Shown here: positions 1,620-10,819 of the stretch, one piece after another
Layout: each line of letters starts with the position of its first letter
How positions within the stretch are numbered: position 1 is the first letter of the stretch
NCBI GenBank assembly: GCA_026416715.1
Contig: JAOAEQ010000026.1
Coordinates: forward strand, 34,547-45,365
DNA length: 10,819 nt
Direction of reading: 5' to 3'
Origin: a bacterium
Lineage (GTDB): Bacteria > UBP4 > UBA4092 > JAOAEQ01
Notes under the pieces: generated by a model
Database searches by the model: none
What the model was told of the DNA's origin: nothing
Seen by the model: the letters and a program-made list of their open reading frames with translations, nothing else
Position numbers and translations under genes: made by a program

Positions 1620-2447
1620 TCAGTCCTTAATTCCCGATAAAGAGATACCTTGAATAATATATTTCTGGAATAGGAGGAACGCTATTAAGGTTGGGATTGT
1701 CCCGAGAACACAAGCGGATAATGTCAATCCATATTCTGCATAATATGAAGTTTGGAATAACGCGATACCGACCGGAAGGGTATATTGATCAACTGAATCG
1801 AGAAAAACTAATGGCGCTAAAAAATCGTTCCAAGACCCGATGAAAGTAAATATACCCAAAGTTGCTAATGCTGGTTTCGATAGCGGCAGGATAATATGCC
1901 GATATATCCGCACGGTCGAACAGCCGTCAATAACTGCGGCGTCTTCTAAATCTTTCGGAATCTGCAAGAAGAATTGATGTAATAGGAAAACGCCGAACGC
2001 GCCGGCACCAGCCGGAATGATTACCGCTAATGGGGTATCCAGCCAACCGAATTTGTTCAGAATCAAATAAACCGGAACTAAACATATCTGACCGGGTACC
2101 ATCAGTGTCCCGATAATCATGAAAAAGATTAACCGATTATATGGTAGATTCAATCGTGCTAACGCAAACGCAGCGAGTGAATCAACGAGTAGAACTAATA
2201 CGGTTATTGCAGATGAGATGAAACCGCTATTAACCAACCAGCGGACTAGCGGGATTTCTTCCGGATTCCCGAGAATCTCTCGGAAGTTTGCAAGAGTCCA
2301 GTTCTGCGGGAAGATGCTTTTAAAATGGACGATTTCGATATCCGGCTTAAATGCGGTGATGAATATCAAGAGCACCGGAAACAGCATAAGAAAAGCACCG
2401 ATGGCGATCATGAGTTCGATAATTTTTTTGTGAAAAGTATTTACCAT
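1620..2447 (-). CDS. ABC sugar transporter permease, MalG/UgpE type
   Basis: This is an inner-membrane permease of a carbohydrate ABC importer (CUT1 family), 275 residues, the usual length. A short cytoplasmic N-terminus is followed by a membrane segment at about 12-32. A run of hydrophobic segments follows (about 75-97, 105-130, 138-160, 195-215, 243-262). The cytoplasmic EAA loop, which docks on the ATPase, is clear at 168-192: EDAAVIDGCSTVRIYRHIIL followed by PLSKPAL. The WNDFLAPLVFL stretch near 206 is typical of MalG-like proteins. An in-frame TGA lies two codons before the ATG, so this is the most upstream start possible. No good Shine-Dalgarno site is seen; an AAGAG lies about 14 bases upstream. 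It is the last of six genes in one direction. Unusually, 136 non-coding bases separate it from its partner permease. The arabinosidase upstream suggests arabinose or arabino-oligosaccharides as substrate, which is inference. Confidence 0.95.
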   Translation of the reverse strand: MVNTFHKKIIELMIAIGAFLMLFPVLLIFITAFKPDIEIVHFKSIFPQNWTLANFREILGNPEEIPLVRWLVNSGFISSAITVLVLLVDSLAAFALARLNLPYNRLIFFMIIGTLMVPGQICLVPVYLILNKFGWLDTPLAVIIPAGAGAFGVFLLHQFFLQIPKDLEDAAVIDGCSTVRIYRHIILPLSKPALATLGIFTFIGSWNDFLAPLVFLDSVDQYTLPVGIALFQTSYYAEYGLTLSACVLGTIPTLIAFLLFQKYIIQGISLSGIKD

Positions 2448-2583
2448 AATTCAATGATAATCTCTTGCCACAAAGCCACCAAGACCAAAACGAATCACAA
2501 AGTAATAGAATTATTTGATTTAATATAAATCATTATTTAGTGTATCTTAGCGTCGTGAAGTCTATGTAGTATATTTTTTATAC
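2448..2583 (-). other. AT-rich spacer between the two permease genes, with hairpins and a CACCAAG-like repeat
   Basis: This 136-base gap carries no open frame of note. On the plus strand 2468-2502 is a degenerate repeat built of CCACAAAG, CCACCAAG, ACCAAAAC and TCACAAAG units. Next is a perfect 7-base stem, TGATTTA (2516-2522) and TAAATCA (2526-2532), with a 3-base loop. GTATA/TATAC (2569-2573 with 2579-2583) forms a weak AT stem directly after the upstream permease stop. The hairpins could slow or end transcription and lower the amount of the last gene. That is inference; none has the GC stem plus T-run of a strong terminator. Confidence 0.45.
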
Positions 2584-3474
2584 TTACTTTTCTCTCAATA
2601 GCCGAAACTGGATGAATGAAAATATCGCTATCACTAAAAATAATAGCCAGCTCATTGCGGCACCGTATCCCATCCGATAATTCATGAACGCTGTTTCATA
2701 AATATATTGGACTAAAACTCGAGTGGCTAATTCCGGTCCGCCACGGGTTACCATGAACGTCTGCCCGAAAATCTGAAATGATGCGATAATCTGGAGCACG
2801 ATTACTAATAATAGCACCGGCCGTAAGAGCGGCAACGTAATATGGATAAACTTACGGAACGCACTAGCGCCATCAATCGCTGCTGCTTCATAATAATGCT
2901 GCGGAATATGCTGTAGTCCTGCAAGTAGGATAACCATCGGTGCGCCGACAGTCCACCAAATCGTCATAAGAACAATTGACCGCATTGCCCAAACGCTATC
3001 AGTAATCCACGGGATTTTCAACCCAACCGAAGCTAGATATGCGTTAAACAAACCGAATTCGGGATTATAGAACCAGCGCCATAATATCCCAACTACACTG
3101 ATGGAAATGAGCGTTGGAAAAAAATATGCTGCACGATATACGACTTGCCGTTTCCGAATCACTGCATTGATTCCAACCGCAATTAATAATGCAGAGAGTA
3201 CAATCGGTGGAACTACCATCAGAACGAATTTAAATGTCGTACTAAGCGCTTTCCAGAAATAAGCACTAGCGAGCGCTTCTCGATAATTCGCCATTCCGAT
3301 AAATTTCGCTGGTTCCGCAGCGAGTAATTCCCAACGATAGAAACTTAACCCGAATCCGTAAATAAGCGGAAGAACTAAAAAGATACCGAATAGAATTAGA
3401 TACGGAAGTAAAAAGAGATAACCGGAATATTGTCTTTTCATAACCGAATTCATCGACACATTAGTTAGGATCAT
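2584..3474 (-). CDS. ABC sugar transporter permease, MalF/UgpA type
   Basis: This is the partner inner-membrane permease of the same CUT1-type importer, 296 residues. The first membrane segment (about 18-42, YLFLLPYLILFGIFLVLPLI) is typical of UgpA-like proteins, and further segments lie near 82-102, 117-136, 168-188, 217-236 and 272-290. The EAA loop is at 195-219: YEAAAIDGASAFRKFIHITL followed by PLLRPVL. The motif VTRGGPELATRVLVQYIYE near 242 is also characteristic. The chosen ATG overlaps the end of the solute-binding protein gene by 14 bases, in another frame, which suggests translational coupling. No Shine-Dalgarno site is seen before it. Met8 or Met12 are possible alternative starts, and Met12 (MKRQYSGY) would give a more usual charged N-terminus. 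The identity is firm; the exact start is not. Confidence 0.95.
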   Translation of the reverse strand: MILTNVSMNSVMKRQYSGYLFLLPYLILFGIFLVLPLIYGFGLSFYRWELLAAEPAKFIGMANYREALASAYFWKALSTTFKFVLMVVPPIVLSALLIAVGINAVIRKRQVVYRAAYFFPTLISISVVGILWRWFYNPEFGLFNAYLASVGLKIPWITDSVWAMRSIVLMTIWWTVGAPMVILLAGLQHIPQHYYEAAAIDGASAFRKFIHITLPLLRPVLLLVIVLQIIASFQIFGQTFMVTRGGPELATRVLVQYIYETAFMNYRMGYGAAMSWLLFLVIAIFSFIQFRLLREK

Positions 3475-4789
3475 TTTGGGGACTGGGTATCGCCCCTACT
3501 TGGCGCTGCCTTCGAATTATCTGATTCACATTCTCGGTAGCGATATCCAACGCTAGCTTGGGAGACAGTGATCCCCGTAACGCTTTTTCCACAGCAATAT
3601 CAAATTCCGTTAAAAATTCAAAAATGTACGGAATACGCGGTACATAACAGATATACGGAATCTGGGTTGCGAACTCATATTGGACTTCCATCCGGTGAAA
3701 TCGGTCAGTTGCACGCAGACTTTTCCGAACCGGGATTTGCCCGCCATCAGCCCAATCGAGACTATTATCGGATAAGAATTTTATAAACCGCCACGAGGCA
3801 TCAAGTTTCTTGCCATCTAATCCGGATTTCAAGCAGAGCAGATGCGAATCCGCCCAAGCTGCCGGTTTAATACCTAGCAGTGGTAACGGTGCACCGGCAT
3901 ACTCTAAATCCGTCTGCTTTTTCAAATCTTCTAACATATAGATCCCTTCAAACGCGATCCCGACTTTCCCCTGCCGAAACCCGATCCAAGAATCGAAATT
4001 CTGCGGTGCCGGAGCGACTTTCAGCTTCTGAATTAGGTCTACACAGAATTGTAACGCTTCAACATTTTCCGGACTATTTAACAAACATTGCGAATAATCC
4101 GAATTAAAAAATTTTCCGTTCCATTGCTGCATAATGGTATATACATTCGTTCGGAGCCAAGTATATACATAACCCCACGTCTCTGGCTGACCATCATGGT
4201 TAGTATCTTTGGTTAATCGCACCAGCGCATCAATAAACTCCTGTTTCGTTTTCGGTGGGCGTGGGTTCCCGAGCGCATCAACGAGTCCTGCCTGTTTGAA
4301 TAACGTCCGATTATAATACATTCCGAGTATATGCACGTCCAGCGGAAGCGCATAATGCTGACCGTTGTTTTCGGTTATTTGCCAGATATTTTCTGAGAAA
4401 TCAGCGATATCTATACCATTCGGGCTCGGTTGGGTTATTAAATCATCAATTGACCGGAGAAACCGTGCGTGCATAAACCGTTCGATATTTCCCGCATGAA
4501 TAACGAAAACTTCCGGTGCACGGTTACTAATCCCAGCAACGAATAGTTTGTTATAATAGGTTCCCCAATCCATCCGCTGCATTAGAACGTGTATCGTTGG
4601 ATTCGATTCGTTGAATCGTTTAACCAATCGCAGCATCGTTCTTCCATCCGGTCCGGTGAATCCGTTCCAGAAACGGATAGTAACTCGGTTGCTAGGATTA
4701 AAACTACATCCGAAGAGCACGACCAATAGCAGATAGCTGATGCTTATTCTGATAAGACTATTACGAGTGAACATACCTAACGGTTTCAT
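3461..4789 (-). CDS. Extracellular sugar-binding lipoprotein of an ABC importer (family 1)
   Basis: This is the solute-binding component that captures sugar outside the cytoplasmic membrane and hands it to the two permeases. At 442 residues it has the usual length. Residues 7-27 form a positively charged then hydrophobic signal, ending in LFGC, a lipobox with Cys28 as the lipid-modified residue. The mature start, VTIRFWNGFTGPDGRTMLRLVKRFNE, is typical of this family: beta strand, FW, then a helix with F-N-E. DWGTYYNKLFVAGISNRAPEVFVIHA (about 74-99) and the GKVGIAFEGIYMLEDL stretch are also characteristic. The start has no clear Shine-Dalgarno site; Met6 is an alternative. A 103-base gap to the arabinosidase gene upstream holds two small stems (TACCA/TGGTA at 4836-4848 and ACAAC/GTTGT at 4859-4875) but no gene. 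Ligand is unproven; context favours arabinose-containing oligosaccharides. Confidence 0.94.
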   Translation of the reverse strand: MKPLGMFTRNSLIRISISYLLLVVLFGCSFNPSNRVTIRFWNGFTGPDGRTMLRLVKRFNESNPTIHVLMQRMDWGTYYNKLFVAGISNRAPEVFVIHAGNIERFMHARFLRSIDDLITQPSPNGIDIADFSENIWQITENNGQHYALPLDVHILGMYYNRTLFKQAGLVDALGNPRPPKTKQEFIDALVRLTKDTNHDGQPETWGYVYTWLRTNVYTIMQQWNGKFFNSDYSQCLLNSPENVEALQFCVDLIQKLKVAPAPQNFDSWIGFRQGKVGIAFEGIYMLEDLKKQTDLEYAGAPLPLLGIKPAAWADSHLLCLKSGLDGKKLDASWRFIKFLSDNSLDWADGGQIPVRKSLRATDRFHRMEVQYEFATQIPYICYVPRIPYIFEFLTEFDIAVEKALRGSLSPKLALDIATENVNQIIRRQRQVGAIPSPQNDPN

Positions 4790-4892
4790 CCTAAATAGTT
4801 TACCTGCACAGACGTAAAGGTAATCCGCTAAAGTTTACCAAGATGGTAGTATAGTTTTACAACTGTTGCGGTTGTCTTAGTTCGCTTGGCGG

Positions 4893-7019
4893 TTATCTTT
4901 TACTTGTTGGAATCAGGGTTTTAGGGTTATACAAAGTAATAACATTTAACGAAGCTGGTTTTAAAACCATTGCGAATTTCTCAGGATTTTCTAATTTCAC
5001 GTGCCTGATATGTGGGGTAACACGATTCGGATATTTCAGTTCGTTCCGCGCCATAAACGATTCGCCAGCAAGTTCATAGTAGCGTGCGATTTTCTTAAAC
5101 TTCGCTTGGGGAATATCGAAATTCACTGGTACCGAGGTATCCGGCGTGCGATTGATTAGGATAATTTTCAGTTCATTCTTATCCATTAATGGCATAACAT
5201 CTACCAGCGGGAATTGTACCGGAGTATCTCCTGCCCAAGAACTTTGCCATTCAGGAATAGAAGAAAACCGGCATCGGACGGTAACTGCTACCGGTCGAGT
5301 TCCAATCACCTGTCGCAATTCTTTCAATGCATAATATACCGGCTGCGGATAAACGATCCCGTTTTCTTTTGCCATCCCGCCGCCATGGTTGATGAGCGCA
5401 CTATGCGTAACCAGATTGACTAACCCTTCAGTTCGAATCGCCGATGTGATAATCCCAGCGTAATAGATTGCTTCAGTCATTGTTTCCGGTCTCGGCTGAT
5501 ACGCCGGAAAATTGAATACCATCGCTTCAGTTATCGCAATGTTAATATCCGCTTGATATTTCCTGCCAAGCTGATGTATCCGCCGATAGACATTTTCGAA
5601 TATATGCGAATACCCGATTTGGCTTAAATAAGCATATACCGCATCCGCATGCGGAGTATTACTAAACAGAAAATGGACTGAAACTGACCGCAGGATATCC
5701 GCGCAGTTCTGAAACAATACTTCATTCCAATCACCGGAAATATGTCCGCACGCAATGAGTTCAATTGACGGATCGCGCGATTTCATTGCAGTATAAAATG
5801 CGCGATATCTCCGTGCATATTCGCTTGCAGTACAATGTCCAATTTGCCAATCACCCCAAAGTTCATTCCCAATTTCCCAGAATTTAACATTATACGGTTC
5901 CGGATGACCGTTTTCAGCCCTGACTTTACCCCAACGCGTTGTCGGACTCCCATTACAATATTCAACCCAATCGGCAGCTTCTTCCGCAGTTCCGTTCCCA
6001 GCATTAACGCAAATCATCGGTTCCGCACCGATAAGTCGGCAGAAGGAAATATGTTCATCGGTACCGACCTGATGCTGGTCAACATCGTTCCAAGCCACAT
6101 TTTTGCTCGTAATCCGTTTATCCCGCGGACCGATATCATCTTTCCAATGATATCCGCTAACATAGTTTCCGCCCGGAAATCGTAACAGCGTTACTCCCGC
6201 TTGTTTCCAGAGTGTAACCACTTCCGGATCGAATCCTTCTGCAATCGCATCCGCAGGAAATAACGTCAATTGGTCGATTTGGCATTTCCCTGGTTGCGTT
6301 AGTCCGATACATAACCAAACCGGTTTCCCGAGCATCGCTTTGGAAATATTCACGGATAAAACGCCCTGATATTGTTTCCAGTCATCTGCACATTTACCCG
6401 TATCAAATTTTAGGATACCGTAGATTTTCTTCGGATTGACACTATCGTTGATTACCACTATTATCGGGGTCGTAGCTGATTTCGCATAAAATGATACCTG
6501 ATATTGTCTAACCCGATTTACTGGCAGAAATATTAACTGCCGAATGCCGACGCCAACGTGGTCTATCGGAATTCTTTTTACTTCAATCAATTGCGAATAA
6601 GAAGAATTATATGCTTCCGGTAGTAGTGCGTAGTTTGCATTACCATCACCATTCCAATTCGTCCAATAATATCCGATATGTTTCGCATCGGATTCTGTCG
6701 GTATCTCGAGTTGGGTATATCGTTTAAAATAATTCTTTTCGTGATTCGTATACCAGTCGCGATGTAAGCATATCCGAATAGGTTCAAGACTCGGATTTTC
6801 AACAATCTGCGCCCAGAATCCGCCGTAGATATTCTTGCCGAGATTTTCGCTAAATTTACCGAATAACCGTCCGGAAACAATATAGTCTGATTGGCGAGAA
6901 ATATGTATCGTTACATCGGCAGTCGGTGAATCTTTTTCTTGATAAACAAACATTTCCGTTCCTTGACAAGCGAAACTAAAAATTAATACCATTGAGATAC
7001 CGCATATCGCGCGTAGCAT
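4893..7019 (-). CDS. Secreted alpha-L-arabinofuranosidase, GH51 type
   Basis: This is a glycoside hydrolase that removes terminal alpha-L-arabinofuranosyl units from arabinan, arabinoxylan or their fragments, by a retaining mechanism in GH51. At 708 residues it is longer than the roughly 500 of cytoplasmic GH51 enzymes. Residues 1-20 are a signal peptide; FSFAC near Cys18 only weakly resembles a lipobox. A family-like opening, RLFGKFSENLGKNIYGGFWAQIVENPSLEP (split over 51-80), is followed by about 170 residues of beta-rich, probably carbohydrate-binding-like insert (85-255). The (beta/alpha)8 domain then starts near VVTLWKQAGVTLLRFPGGNY (267-286). FWEIGNELWG places the acid/base at Glu386. 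INIAITEAMVFNF places the likely nucleophile at Glu498, 112 residues later, close to the GH51 spacing. A C-terminal beta domain ends in FAMVLKPASLNVITLYNP. A strong GGAGG site lies 8 bases before the ATG. Substrate chain type is not known. Confidence 0.92.
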   Translation of the reverse strand: MLRAICGISMVLIFSFACQGTEMFVYQEKDSPTADVTIHISRQSDYIVSGRLFGKFSENLGKNIYGGFWAQIVENPSLEPIRICLHRDWYTNHEKNYFKRYTQLEIPTESDAKHIGYYWTNWNGDGNANYALLPEAYNSSYSQLIEVKRIPIDHVGVGIRQLIFLPVNRVRQYQVSFYAKSATTPIIVVINDSVNPKKIYGILKFDTGKCADDWKQYQGVLSVNISKAMLGKPVWLCIGLTQPGKCQIDQLTLFPADAIAEGFDPEVVTLWKQAGVTLLRFPGGNYVSGYHWKDDIGPRDKRITSKNVAWNDVDQHQVGTDEHISFCRLIGAEPMICVNAGNGTAEEAADWVEYCNGSPTTRWGKVRAENGHPEPYNVKFWEIGNELWGDWQIGHCTASEYARRYRAFYTAMKSRDPSIELIACGHISGDWNEVLFQNCADILRSVSVHFLFSNTPHADAVYAYLSQIGYSHIFENVYRRIHQLGRKYQADINIAITEAMVFNFPAYQPRPETMTEAIYYAGIITSAIRTEGLVNLVTHSALINHGGGMAKENGIVYPQPVYYALKELRQVIGTRPVAVTVRCRFSSIPEWQSSWAGDTPVQFPLVDVMPLMDKNELKIILINRTPDTSVPVNFDIPQAKFKKIARYYELAGESFMARNELKYPNRVTPHIRHVKLENPEKFAMVLKPASLNVITLYNPKTLIPTSKR

Positions 7020-7027
7020 TTACCGAG

Positions 7028-7032
7028 CCTCC
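7028..7032 (-). promoter_or_regulatory. Strong Shine-Dalgarno site of the arabinofuranosidase gene
   Basis: On the minus strand GGAGG lies 8 bases before the ATG at 7019. It is the best ribosome binding site in the window; the transporter genes downstream have weak or no visible ones. It fixes the start of the enzyme and suggests that it is the most strongly translated gene of the set. Confidence 0.8.
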
Positions 7033-7040
7033 TATCTTCA

Positions 7041-7050
7041 TTGATATCAA
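7041..7050. promoter_or_regulatory. Perfect 10-base palindrome upstream of the arabinofuranosidase gene, possible operator
   Basis: TTGATATCAA is its own reverse complement and lies 21 bases before the enzyme's start codon, inside a 149-base non-coding gap (7020-7168). A gap of this size with a strong ribosome site suggests an internal promoter. A weak -10-like TATCAA overlaps the palindrome, with TTGTTT 17 bases upstream, but the match is poor. A dimeric regulator could bind here. AT-rich palindromes of this length also occur by chance, so the call is tentative. Confidence 0.3.
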
Positions 7051-7168
7051 ATGCAACTTTACAAAACAAAAAGACTGAATGAACCAATGTACCTAAATAC
7101 AGGGATATAAGCGTATTATTGAATAGTTCTTTCATTGTTCAGCATTTGAGTCTGGAACATCTACCAGT

Positions 7169-8527
7169 TTATTGAATTAATTTAACATAATCGAAGGTAG
7201 CATAGAAATCATAGTCGTTTGGATACTGGATAAAAATATCGCCAGAGGCAAATAGTCGTAGTTCTGTAGCTGGATAAACGAGCATAAATTCACCACAATG
7301 AAACCAATCCCGATAATTATACGAAACTTGCACCCGATATTTCGCTGGGAGCAATTTCTGAATCCGGAAATATACATCCGTTACTTTCCTTTTTCGAAAC
7401 GCAACCTGGTGAACGGTACCGAAATAATCGAAGCGGGTATCTACACAAATCTGTTCGCAATACATCTGGTCAAGTTCATGGTCAGCAACTACGGAAACCG
7501 ACCCATAATTCTTATGCCCTAGCCAAAGGATAACCCCCGCTTTATTCCAAGCCCCTTTTGCAAAAGGATTAAACTGCGCTAGGTTTATTTCCAGTACCCA
7601 AGTATCAGATTGCGGAACGGGAATTGCAAGATAGGGATAGGTTTCGTTTCCGATGAAGAAATCCGAACCAGGAACAGGAACAATATATAATTTTCCGTTT
7701 CGCATTTCTATGGTTCCGATTCCGGTAGACCAATCGAGATTGGTTTGCCCACGAACCCAATTCGGAACAATTTCGTTGCTATCAAACTCGGTATCCACAT
7801 ACCCTGGTAATTTTCGTTCTTCCCAGCATGAGAATCGTGGTGATTTGAGCATTCTCCCACCGATTCCGATAATCCCAATTCCACGAAAGAACGATTCTGA
7901 ATCTGATTCCGGAATAACGAATCCGCCGAGGATAAACCAGACCTTCTTATCCCAGGAAACGAACGTAGTTACATTATGTTTTCTAACTTCCATCCGCAAA
8001 ATGACCCGTTGCGGATGTTCGCGCGGATAAATAGGCATTAATCCTTTCGATTGCGGGTTACCATCGAATTCCGCTAACGATTCTACTGCAGGGTTTATAA
8101 ACCCGTAGGTAGCTCGAATATAATTATCTGCATCGCGCCAGATAACTAACCCGACTTGCGCATAGGGTTCTGCTGGTATAAACTCATCAATTTCCACCTG
8201 AAAATAATAATCAGACTTAAATTTCGGCTGTCGGAACAGAATCGCTTTTTGATTATTTTGATTGCGATAACAATCGCCGGTAATATCAGTGAACTGAATG
8301 CCGCAGTCGGTCAGGCACAGAAAATCGAATAGATCGTTCGGAGCAACTGTTTGCCAGCTCCGCTTAAATTCCGCTCTATCGTTATAGATTAGATTATCTT
8401 GAAACAGAACAGATTCGGTAGCGTAAGTGAGAGAAATATAACCGATAAGAAATAGAAATATCCATAAATATTTGAGTTTGCCGGGCGGGGTTTGAAACTT
8501 AGATTGTGGAATTTGGAAATTATCCAT
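7169..8527 (-). CDS. Secreted protein with two tandem concanavalin-like (DUF1349/GH43_C2-like) domains
   Basis: This 452-residue protein has a signal peptide: a polar stretch 1-19, a hydrophobic core at about 20-35 (YLWIFLFLIGYISLTY), and probable cleavage near ATES. Two similar beta-rich halves follow, about 40-238 and 245-452. Each carries the pattern of beta-xylosidase C-terminal concanavalin-like domains: AQVGLVIWRDADNYIRATYG (123-142) and VTTFVSWDKKVWFILGG in the first, and NKAGVILWLGHKNYGSVSV (328-346) and RVQVSYNYRDWFHCGEF in the second. No catalytic motif is seen, so a glycan-binding or accessory role is most likely. The start lies 2 bases after the ankyrin gene stop, with GGAAG 8 bases before the ATG, which shows translational coupling. 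The polar N-terminus (FQIPQSKFQTPPGK) before the signal core is odd and reads like repeat-derived DNA. The gene is followed by the arabinofuranosidase. The domain assignment is by pattern only. Confidence 0.8.
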   Translation of the reverse strand: MDNFQIPQSKFQTPPGKLKYLWIFLFLIGYISLTYATESVLFQDNLIYNDRAEFKRSWQTVAPNDLFDFLCLTDCGIQFTDITGDCYRNQNNQKAILFRQPKFKSDYYFQVEIDEFIPAEPYAQVGLVIWRDADNYIRATYGFINPAVESLAEFDGNPQSKGLMPIYPREHPQRVILRMEVRKHNVTTFVSWDKKVWFILGGFVIPESDSESFFRGIGIIGIGGRMLKSPRFSCWEERKLPGYVDTEFDSNEIVPNWVRGQTNLDWSTGIGTIEMRNGKLYIVPVPGSDFFIGNETYPYLAIPVPQSDTWVLEINLAQFNPFAKGAWNKAGVILWLGHKNYGSVSVVADHELDQMYCEQICVDTRFDYFGTVHQVAFRKRKVTDVYFRIQKLLPAKYRVQVSYNYRDWFHCGEFMLVYPATELRLFASGDIFIQYPNDYDFYATFDYVKLIQ

Positions 8528-8529
8528 TG

Positions 8530-10173
8530 CTACTTCTTCCGGCTGGTATCTCTCTGGTAAGTATCGAAAACCGATTTATCGTTCGTATCGAGATAGATTT
8601 GTTCGGTTCGTTCATCGAGAACAACCCATCGGTCAATCTGCCCATCCTGATTCGAATCGAATTCAATCCAGCCAGGATATTCATATTTTTCCGGCAGCCC
8701 GTTATCATCCGCATCGAATAATGACATTTTCCAATCACCCCATTGCGAAATGATGATATATTCCGGGTTACCATCTTTATTGCTATCCGCAGTCTCGAAA
8801 ATAAACGAAACACCACCAGGACGACTATAATATTCTAGGTTTCGTTTCCGACCGTTATCGAAATAATAGATGAAATTCAACTGCGGGTTGATATAATCCT
8901 TTTCCGGATTATGTTCCCGAACCAGAATCTGTCTGATTAATTCCGGATACCGTTCGCGGATATGTTTCTCGAATAATGGCGTATAGTTGACAATACGATT
9001 CCAATCGGGGTCAGTAACCTCTTTCGCTAGCTCAAGTCGGTTTTGCGGCGGTTTCTCGTTCACTGCATCTACGATTCCGGTACCGGTTAACGAAATTTTT
9101 TGACCGCGTTTGATTCCGTTCTTATCATATACCGTCCACGAGATAGTATATGGCGTATCTTTCCCCGGCATAAACCATTCGGTGCGCGCGAGCCCTTTTC
9201 CATCGAAATATTCGCGTTTATCGCACGAACCATCCGTATCATCATCATAGGCGAGTCCGATAACTTTCTCGTTTTCGATAATCGGGGTAATACTATCCAG
9301 ATGTCGCGCTTGTTTAATGAGATTAACGATATCTAACGTGCCTTTCATCACCGCTGTATAGAGCGCTAGACGAATATTCTCCTGCGCACCGGCATCAAGC
9401 AGAAGTTTAACGATATCCGACCGACCGAAATATGCAGCGATAACCAGCGCAGGTTTCCCGAGTTCATCTTTCGTGTCCGGATTAGCGCCCGAAGATAAAA
9501 ACCGATTCACCTGTTCCGGTTCATTCAAAACGATTGCGGTTATCAGGTTTTTATTCATATCCGCACCATATTTCGGTGCACCGGCGGTAACCAGCAGTTG
9601 CGCAAGTTCCGCATATTCGTTCATTGCAGCGAGTGTAACTGCGGTATCGCCATCTTTCGATTTCAAGGTAACATTCGCACCGCTTTTCAGTAATAAAGTA
9701 ACGATATCCGTTTTCCCGAGCATCGCCGCAAGCATCAGCGGTGTATATCCGAAAACGGTATCCGCAGAATTAACATTAGCCCCGGATTGAATCAATAGTT
9801 TAACGATTTCAAGATTACCGGTTCTCGTCGCAAAATGGATTGCCGTTAATCCGATCGGTGTTTTTGCATTCACCATCGCTCCTTTTTGAACGAACATTTT
9901 TACCAATGCGGGGTTCTCGCTACCAGCAGCGAGCATCAACGCCGTATATCCGGTTTCGGAATGCTGTAGGTTCGGGTTCATTCCAGCAGTGAAAAATAAC
10001 GATACCACTGCAGTATCTCCTTGCAGAACTGATTGGATAAACATATCCTTCGTAAACGGGATATTCCGTTTCGCTAGTTCTTTTTTCGCTTCCGTCGGTG
10101 TTAAACTGAACACTGGTTGCAGAGTTACGCTAAACCATATCAACCAGCAACATATCAATTTCGTATATTGCAT
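8530..10173 (-). CDS. Secreted ankyrin-repeat protein with C-terminal Ca-binding-like Asp/Gly loops
   Basis: This 547-residue protein starts with a signal peptide (about 1-23, ICCWLIWFSVTLQPVFS). About eight ankyrin units follow from residue 42 to 292. The clearest are GYTALMLAAG..., GLTAIHFATRTGNLEIVKLL, GYTPLMLAAMLGKTDIVTLL and GKPALVIAAYFGRSDIVKLL, with SGANVN-type turns. The C-terminal part (300-547) holds DxDxDG-like loops of the EF-hand/dockerin/FG-GAP kind: DDDTDGSCDKREYFD (310-324), DSNKDGNPEY (463-472), DADDNGLPEKYEY (487-499), DSNQDGQIDRW (506-516) and DTNDKSVFDTYQ (529-540). Ankyrin units bind proteins; the loops may bind Ca2+. The start is supported by AAGGA 7 bases before the ATG. 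The gene heads the minus-strand set and is coupled to the ConA-like protein. Its function is unknown. A periplasmic or surface scaffold is a guess. Confidence 0.88.
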   Translation of the reverse strand: MQYTKLICCWLIWFSVTLQPVFSLTPTEAKKELAKRNIPFTKDMFIQSVLQGDTAVVSLFFTAGMNPNLQHSETGYTALMLAAGSENPALVKMFVQKGAMVNAKTPIGLTAIHFATRTGNLEIVKLLIQSGANVNSADTVFGYTPLMLAAMLGKTDIVTLLLKSGANVTLKSKDGDTAVTLAAMNEYAELAQLLVTAGAPKYGADMNKNLITAIVLNEPEQVNRFLSSGANPDTKDELGKPALVIAAYFGRSDIVKLLLDAGAQENIRLALYTAVMKGTLDIVNLIKQARHLDSITPIIENEKVIGLAYDDDTDGSCDKREYFDGKGLARTEWFMPGKDTPYTISWTVYDKNGIKRGQKISLTGTGIVDAVNEKPPQNRLELAKEVTDPDWNRIVNYTPLFEKHIRERYPELIRQILVREHNPEKDYINPQLNFIYYFDNGRKRNLEYYSRPGGVSFIFETADSNKDGNPEYIIISQWGDWKMSLFDADDNGLPEKYEYPGWIEFDSNQDGQIDRWVVLDERTEQIYLDTNDKSVFDTYQRDTSRKK

Positions 10174-10244: not shown

Positions 10245-10262
10245 CCCGAGCTCAAGCTCGGG
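10245..10262. repeat. GC-rich hairpin, copy 1 of a mirrored pair
   Basis: CCCGAGCTCAAGCTCGGG folds into a 7-base-pair stem (10245-10251 with 10256-10262) around a TCAA loop. There is no T-run on either side. Its reverse complement matches 17 of 18 bases of 10760-10777, so the two are inverted copies that flank the small Cys-rich gene. It is probably a dispersed palindromic element. Confidence 0.75.
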
Positions 10263-10370: not shown

Positions 10371-10509
10371 TTTATTGATACCGGCTCACTTGCTAATTTC
10401 ACCTTTTTCCTTGATAATGGTAGGGAACCGTCGGTTATTCAGCCGGTACTCTGGTAATACTAAGAAGGATTATTACATCTAAATTGTAACGTAAAGGATG
10501 TGAACGGAC

Positions 10510-10656
10510 ATGGCTAGTGTTAAAGCGGGTTGGGGTGGATGTAAAATATGTAAAGCGTCAGGGAGAGAATTGCGACAATGTGTCTATTGCGGTGCGGTAG
10601 CTTGTGCGCAATGCTGGAAAGAACGAAATGATACCTGCCCGGTATGCAATAAATAA
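10510..10656 (+). CDS. 48-residue Cys-rich protein, four CxxC pairs, RING-like zinc-binding pattern
   Basis: The frame starts at an ATG with AAAGGA 11 bases upstream and ends at TAA. The protein has eight cysteines in four CxxC pairs, at 11/14, 24/27, 32/35 and 43/46. The spacings are CxxC-x9-CxxC-x4-CxxC-x7-CxxC, which gives ligands for two zinc ions. The first pair reads CKIC, the last CPVC, and a Trp follows the third pair, as in RING-type cross-brace domains (the all-Cys version). Double zinc-ribbon or B-box-like folds are alternatives. There is no signal peptide or membrane segment, so it is probably cytoplasmic. It stands alone between hairpin-rich spacers and is divergent from the ankyrin gene. 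The regular Cys pattern is strong evidence that it is a real gene. Function is unknown: nucleic-acid binding, protein binding, or an adaptor role would all fit. Confidence 0.78.
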   Translation: MASVKAGWGGCKICKASGRELRQCVYCGAVACAQCWKERNDTCPVCNK

Positions 10657-10758: not shown

Positions 10759-10778
10759 CCCCGAACTTGAGCTCGGGG
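10759..10778. repeat. GC-rich hairpin, copy 2 of a mirrored pair
   Basis: CCCCGAACTTGAGCTCGGGG forms an 8-base-pair stem with one A-C mismatch (10759-10766 with 10771-10778) around a TTGA loop. It is an inverted copy of the hairpin at 10245-10262, with one change in 18 bases. It is followed by AAAATAG on the plus strand, so it is not a plain intrinsic terminator. Weaker stems lie on both sides: AGAGC/GCTCT at 10730-10745 and TGGGT/ACCCA at 10799-10813. Confidence 0.7.
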
Positions 10779-10819
10779 AAAATAGTGGATAAACACGTTG
10801 GGTGTTCAACCCATACTTC

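Follow-up and report, generated by a model that had tools for sequence, protein, structure and literature searches.

A lineage-restricted bacterial microprotein gene encodes a 48-residue relative of RING fingers

We find that a short bacterial open reading frame (ORF) encoding 48 amino acids is a genuine, lineage-restricted microprotein gene, that it is conserved in a sister genome, and that its product is similar to RING-family proteins. We consider it fairly likely that the gene encodes a stand-alone, binuclear, RING-like treble clef that works as a passive docking module and not as a ubiquitin E3; such a protein would bind zinc, be cross-braced and act as an adaptor. No ubiquitin machinery was found in the genome that carries the gene, so the protein probably serves as a small scaffold for binding and not as a ubiquitin ligase. 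The whole stretch of DNA that was analysed, hereafter the window, is 10,819 nucleotides long. The gene and its candidate expression signals are:

10390..10418, plus strand: weak promoter-like site 91 nt before the ORF, TTGCTA-17-GATAAT
10493..10498, plus strand: possible Shine-Dalgarno sequence AAAGGA, 11 nt 5' of the ATG, a suboptimal spacing
10510..10656, plus strand: ORF of a RING-like C4C4 microprotein, Prok-RING_2-like (PF14445, 28.3 bits against a cut-off of 22.4; 52% identical homologue)

The ORF runs from ATG to TAA and is translated as MASVKAGWGGCKICKASGRELRQCVYCGAVACAQCWKERNDTCPVCNK, in which eight cysteines form the pairs C11/C14, C24/C27, C32/C35 and C43/C46. A preliminary description of this DNA had reported four CxxC pairs separated by 9, 4 and 7 residues, with CKIC as the first pair, CPVC as the last and a Trp directly after the third, and the translated ORF bears out each of these points (the Trp is W36). 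Four CxxC motifs occurred in none of 20,000 random 50-codon stretches with the base composition of the window, and no other frame has more than two among the 788 stop-to-stop frames (at least 30 amino acids) of the whole 45-kb contig. A chance origin of the pattern is thus excluded.

The sister genome, which belongs to the same class and a different family and is the sole other genome of the phylum in the searched set, carries a homologous ORF of 47 amino acids (MAFTRDGWGICKYCQAGAKQLYQCIYCGIIACKDCFKDDVCPECKKK; 52% identity over the full length, E 5.8e-12) that shares the start and keeps all eight cysteines. The gaps of 9 and 4 residues and the N-terminal GWG are identical in the two proteins, whereas pairs 3 and 4 stand 7 residues apart here and 5 in the homologue. 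The ATG of the homologue is preceded by a clear GGAGG Shine-Dalgarno sequence, clearer than the AAAGGA of the window. Over 46 codons, the two ORFs differ at 14 first, 15 second and 28 third positions; synonymous sites are saturated at this distance, and the third-position excess fits purifying selection on the protein. The lack of conservation in related genomes for which the preliminary description had allowed is therefore excluded.

The best profile match of the protein is to the Pfam family Prok-RING_2 (PF14445), with an E value of 2e-6 over residues 11 to 46, that is, from the first cysteine to the eighth, and a score above the gathering cut-off. The homologue scores 16.9 bits against the same profile, under the cut-off of 22.4. 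Other Pfam RING families match the protein at E values of 7e-4 to 0.04 (zf-RING_2 and zf-C3HC4_3 at about 7e-4). When the cysteines were held fixed and all other residues were shuffled, none of the nine controls matched Prok-RING_2 (best RING-type E 0.008); thus, the PF14445 match reflects more than the cysteine pattern. Searches against Protein Data Bank (PDB) sequences gave RNF126 as the best match of the single sequence (E 0.005) and RNF4 as that of a two-sequence profile (E 4.5e-5), followed mostly by further RING E3s. Together with the conserved frame, these matches uphold the earlier view of the ORF as a stand-alone RING-like microprotein. Prok-RING_2 itself is rare, with matches in 3 of the 386 genomes searched, and the family reportedly stems from a 2011 paper by Burroughs, Iyer and Aravind.

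The likeness to a minimal RING finger in layout, as also proposed, is a loose one. The classical consensus is C-x2-C-x(9-39)-C-x(1-3)-C/H-x(2-3)-C-x2-C-x(4-48)-C-x2-C, and both homologues depart from it at a single place, the gap between pairs 2 and 3, which has four residues rather than two or three; the remaining spacings fit. A four-residue gap at this place, after CxxCG, is typical of C4C4 RING/FYVE-type fingers.

Given the PF14445 match and the shuffled controls that never matched, a cross-braced, two-zinc treble clef is the likeliest fold, and we regard it as quite probable. The indel that separates the homologues falls in the loop between pairs 3 and 4 (7 residues to 5), and pairs 2 and 3 keep their four-residue spacing, a pattern that would suit a cross-brace; cross-braced RINGs commonly vary in length in that loop. 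An AlphaFold model built from the single sequence with no alignment was of low confidence (pLDDT 58.9, pTM 0.33). In the model, a hairpin links pairs 1 and 2 and a helix follows pair 3, an arrangement suggestive of a treble clef; a Foldseek search with this low-confidence model returned nothing significant. The fold assignment therefore rests on sequence, from two known members.

In the main competing reading, pairs 1+2 and pairs 3+4 would each make up a zinc ribbon or knuckle, one after the other, in a microprotein that binds nucleic acid or protein like the haloarchaeal C(P)XCG proteins. The small size of the protein, its CxxC pairs and its net positive charge (+5 as calculated from sequence, and +3 in the homologue) would fit such a protein, and half of the protein weakly matches SPT4 in the PDB profile search (E 0.2). 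However, no zinc-ribbon family was matched at E ≤ 1 in the Pfam search, whereas RING families align across the full span from the first to the eighth cysteine. In addition, the five-residue stretch that separates pairs 3 and 4 in the homologue would be very short for a single zinc site made of two knuckles. We consider sequential ribbons unlikely. Note that the Haloferax protein HVO_2753 has four C(P)XCG motifs yet binds one zinc only (PMC11241148), so four CxxC pairs are no guarantee of two zincs.

The second alternative places the protein in a ubiquitin-like conjugation system of the bacterium, where it would act by itself as a RING-type E3 or as an E3-like adaptor. The RING-family matches point in this direction, as do an Ile after the first cysteine and a Pro after the seventh, which many E2-binding RINGs also have. 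In RINGs, E2 is contacted by a hydrophobic residue two positions after the first cysteine (C1+2), an aromatic residue at C6+4, a Pro at C7+1 and an Arg linchpin at C8+1. This set is incomplete in the protein: I13 and P44 fit, but C6+4 is R39, which is not hydrophobic, and the linchpin position is N47. In the homologue, positions C1+2, C6+4 and C8+1 hold Tyr, Asp and Lys. W36 does not correspond to the Trp with which RINGs contact E2, since it occupies C6+1 and not C6+4, and Phe replaces it in the homologue.

The gene content of the host argues in the same sense. Its genome is listed as 100% complete, and profile searches found no match to ThiF/E1, Prok-E2_B or Prok-JAB; for UQ_con there was a single chance match (E 0.098, with an internal stop). 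These searches covered those four families, two of them (Prok-E2_B and UQ_con) E2 families. Positive controls were recovered for E1 (279 bits) and JAB (77 bits) in the sister genome, and most control genomes were positive too; the E2 searches are without a strong positive control. Nothing ubiquitin-like was found near the homologue or beside the gene in the window, which was seen up to position 10819, where window and contig both end. The tie to ubiquitin-like systems suggested in the preliminary description thus goes unsupported, and the E1/E2/JAB-like neighbours that it proposed to look for adjoin the gene in neither genome (up to the contig end in the host). An E3 function is largely refuted and, in our judgement, very improbable.

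The small protein remains best read as a RING-like docking module, and its distribution is narrow. Among 384 further bacterial genomes, neither a profile search nor the DNA pattern GWGxCxxC-x9-CxxCG, for which a reversed-pattern control gave zero matches, yielded a convincing orthologue; this and the sister-genome homologue define a lineage-restricted gene. Profile matches elsewhere in the 386 genomes were to long ORFs, of unrelated architecture where read, and were rejected as orthologues. Searches of genome contigs from 85k species with peptide patterns and with a DNA pattern gave three matches, all of them chance frames, and viral contigs, plasmids, phages, NCBIfam, PHROGs and PADLOC held no relative. 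It is scarcely credible that the ORF is a chance or non-translated frame, as its weak ribosome-binding site, its lack of a significant promoter (3 sites in the scan against a chance expectation of 1.9) and its absence from almost all other searched genomes might suggest, because a same-start homologue of near-equal length and 52% identity exists in another family and random frames do not produce four CxxC motifs.

The neighbours of the gene in the window are:

1620-4789: sugar ABC transporter operon with two permeases and a solute-binding protein
4893-7019: arabinofuranosidase
7169-8527: GH43_C2-type protein
8530-10173, minus strand: ankyrin-repeat protein of 547 amino acids, divergent from the microprotein gene

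The genes at 1620-8527 are likely a plant-sugar utilisation cluster. The environments of the two homologues are unrelated: the one in the sister genome lies downstream of a GH66 gene and a sucC/sucD block, with nothing in common with the genes listed. This GH66 gene is split into two overlapping frames of 293 and 316 amino acids (L023:13180-14980) and so appears frameshifted, through mutation or assembly error. The ankyrin protein gives a strong match to part of the PADLOC candidate model PDC-M72A, which is probably due only to shared ankyrin repeats. Palindromes flank the microprotein gene (CCCGAGCTCAAGCTCGGG at 10245-10262 and CCCCGAACTTGAGCTCGGGG at 10759-10778). They were considered as mobile-element ends and rejected as unsupported, since the genome has similar palindromes in other places too; interspersed hairpins are what they resemble. 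The window contains no Rfam matches or tRNAs.

At its other end, positions 1-17 of the window (ATGTGTATAAGAGACAG) are a Nextera transposon-end adapter directly after a scaffold gap of 10 N, the opposite side of which ends in CTGTCTCTT (C26:34528-34546). This is an adapter-joined scaffold inside a xanthine-dehydrogenase-type gene, and the first codons of the ORF at 3-1469 are adapter. It is odd that the host genome, listed as 100% complete, has a xanthine dehydrogenase-type molybdopterin enzyme yet no ThiF/MoeB-type E1-like match. MoeB usually serves molybdopterin synthesis.

In a cross-braced protein, the first zinc would be held by pairs 1 and 3 (C11, C14, C32, C35) and the second by pairs 2 and 4 (C24, C27, C43, C46). 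A beta-hairpin would connect pairs 1 and 2, and a short helix would follow pair 3. The two zincs would stiffen a domain too small for a hydrophobic core, which may then serve a partner protein as a passive docking surface; nucleic acid is less likely as the partner and is the main alternative. Candidate contacts are the conserved N-terminal GWG, a shallow groove between the zinc loops and the basic surface. More specifically, and tentatively, the protein could be a stand-alone RING-like adaptor that works independently of ubiquitin, its minimal cross-braced domain docking on a protein complex of the bacterium. Were this so, it would show the job of the RING fold before, or apart from, ubiquitin.

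With these findings, the few known prokaryotic RING-like fingers gain a very small, conserved, stand-alone member, from a poorly sampled phylum and a genome in which the searches found no ubiquitin-type conjugation genes. If cross-braced, the protein would rank with the smallest RING-like proteins in nature and give a clear example of the fold at work outside ubiquitin chemistry; if not, it would be an ordinary zinc microprotein.

Among known systems, Prok-RING_2 is the closest by profile, matching over its cut-off from the first to the eighth cysteine, although the homologue scores below that cut-off. Eukaryotic C4C4/RING E3s such as RNF4 and RNF126, the best PDB sequence matches, share the four ligand pairs, CxIC as the first and CPxC as the last, and a helix, predicted here, after pair 3; CNOT4 and p44 are further eukaryotic comparators with C4C4/RING E3 domains. 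Unlike these E3s, the microprotein has a gap of four residues rather than two or three between pairs 2 and 3, lacks the E2-contact Trp and the linchpin Arg, and resides in a genome with no E1/E2 match. Its core spacing, CxxCGxxxCxxC, is that of FYVE domains, but it lacks their R(R/K)HHCR, WxxD and RVC motifs, and the Pfam search gave no FYVE match. The haloarchaeal C(P)XCG micro-proteins, among them HVO_2753 and HVO_0758, are likewise stand-alone proteins of under 70 amino acids with CxxC pairs, and mostly bind zinc (PMC11241148). These are archaeal whereas the protein described here is bacterial, and it is in size and CxxC pairs that they are alike.
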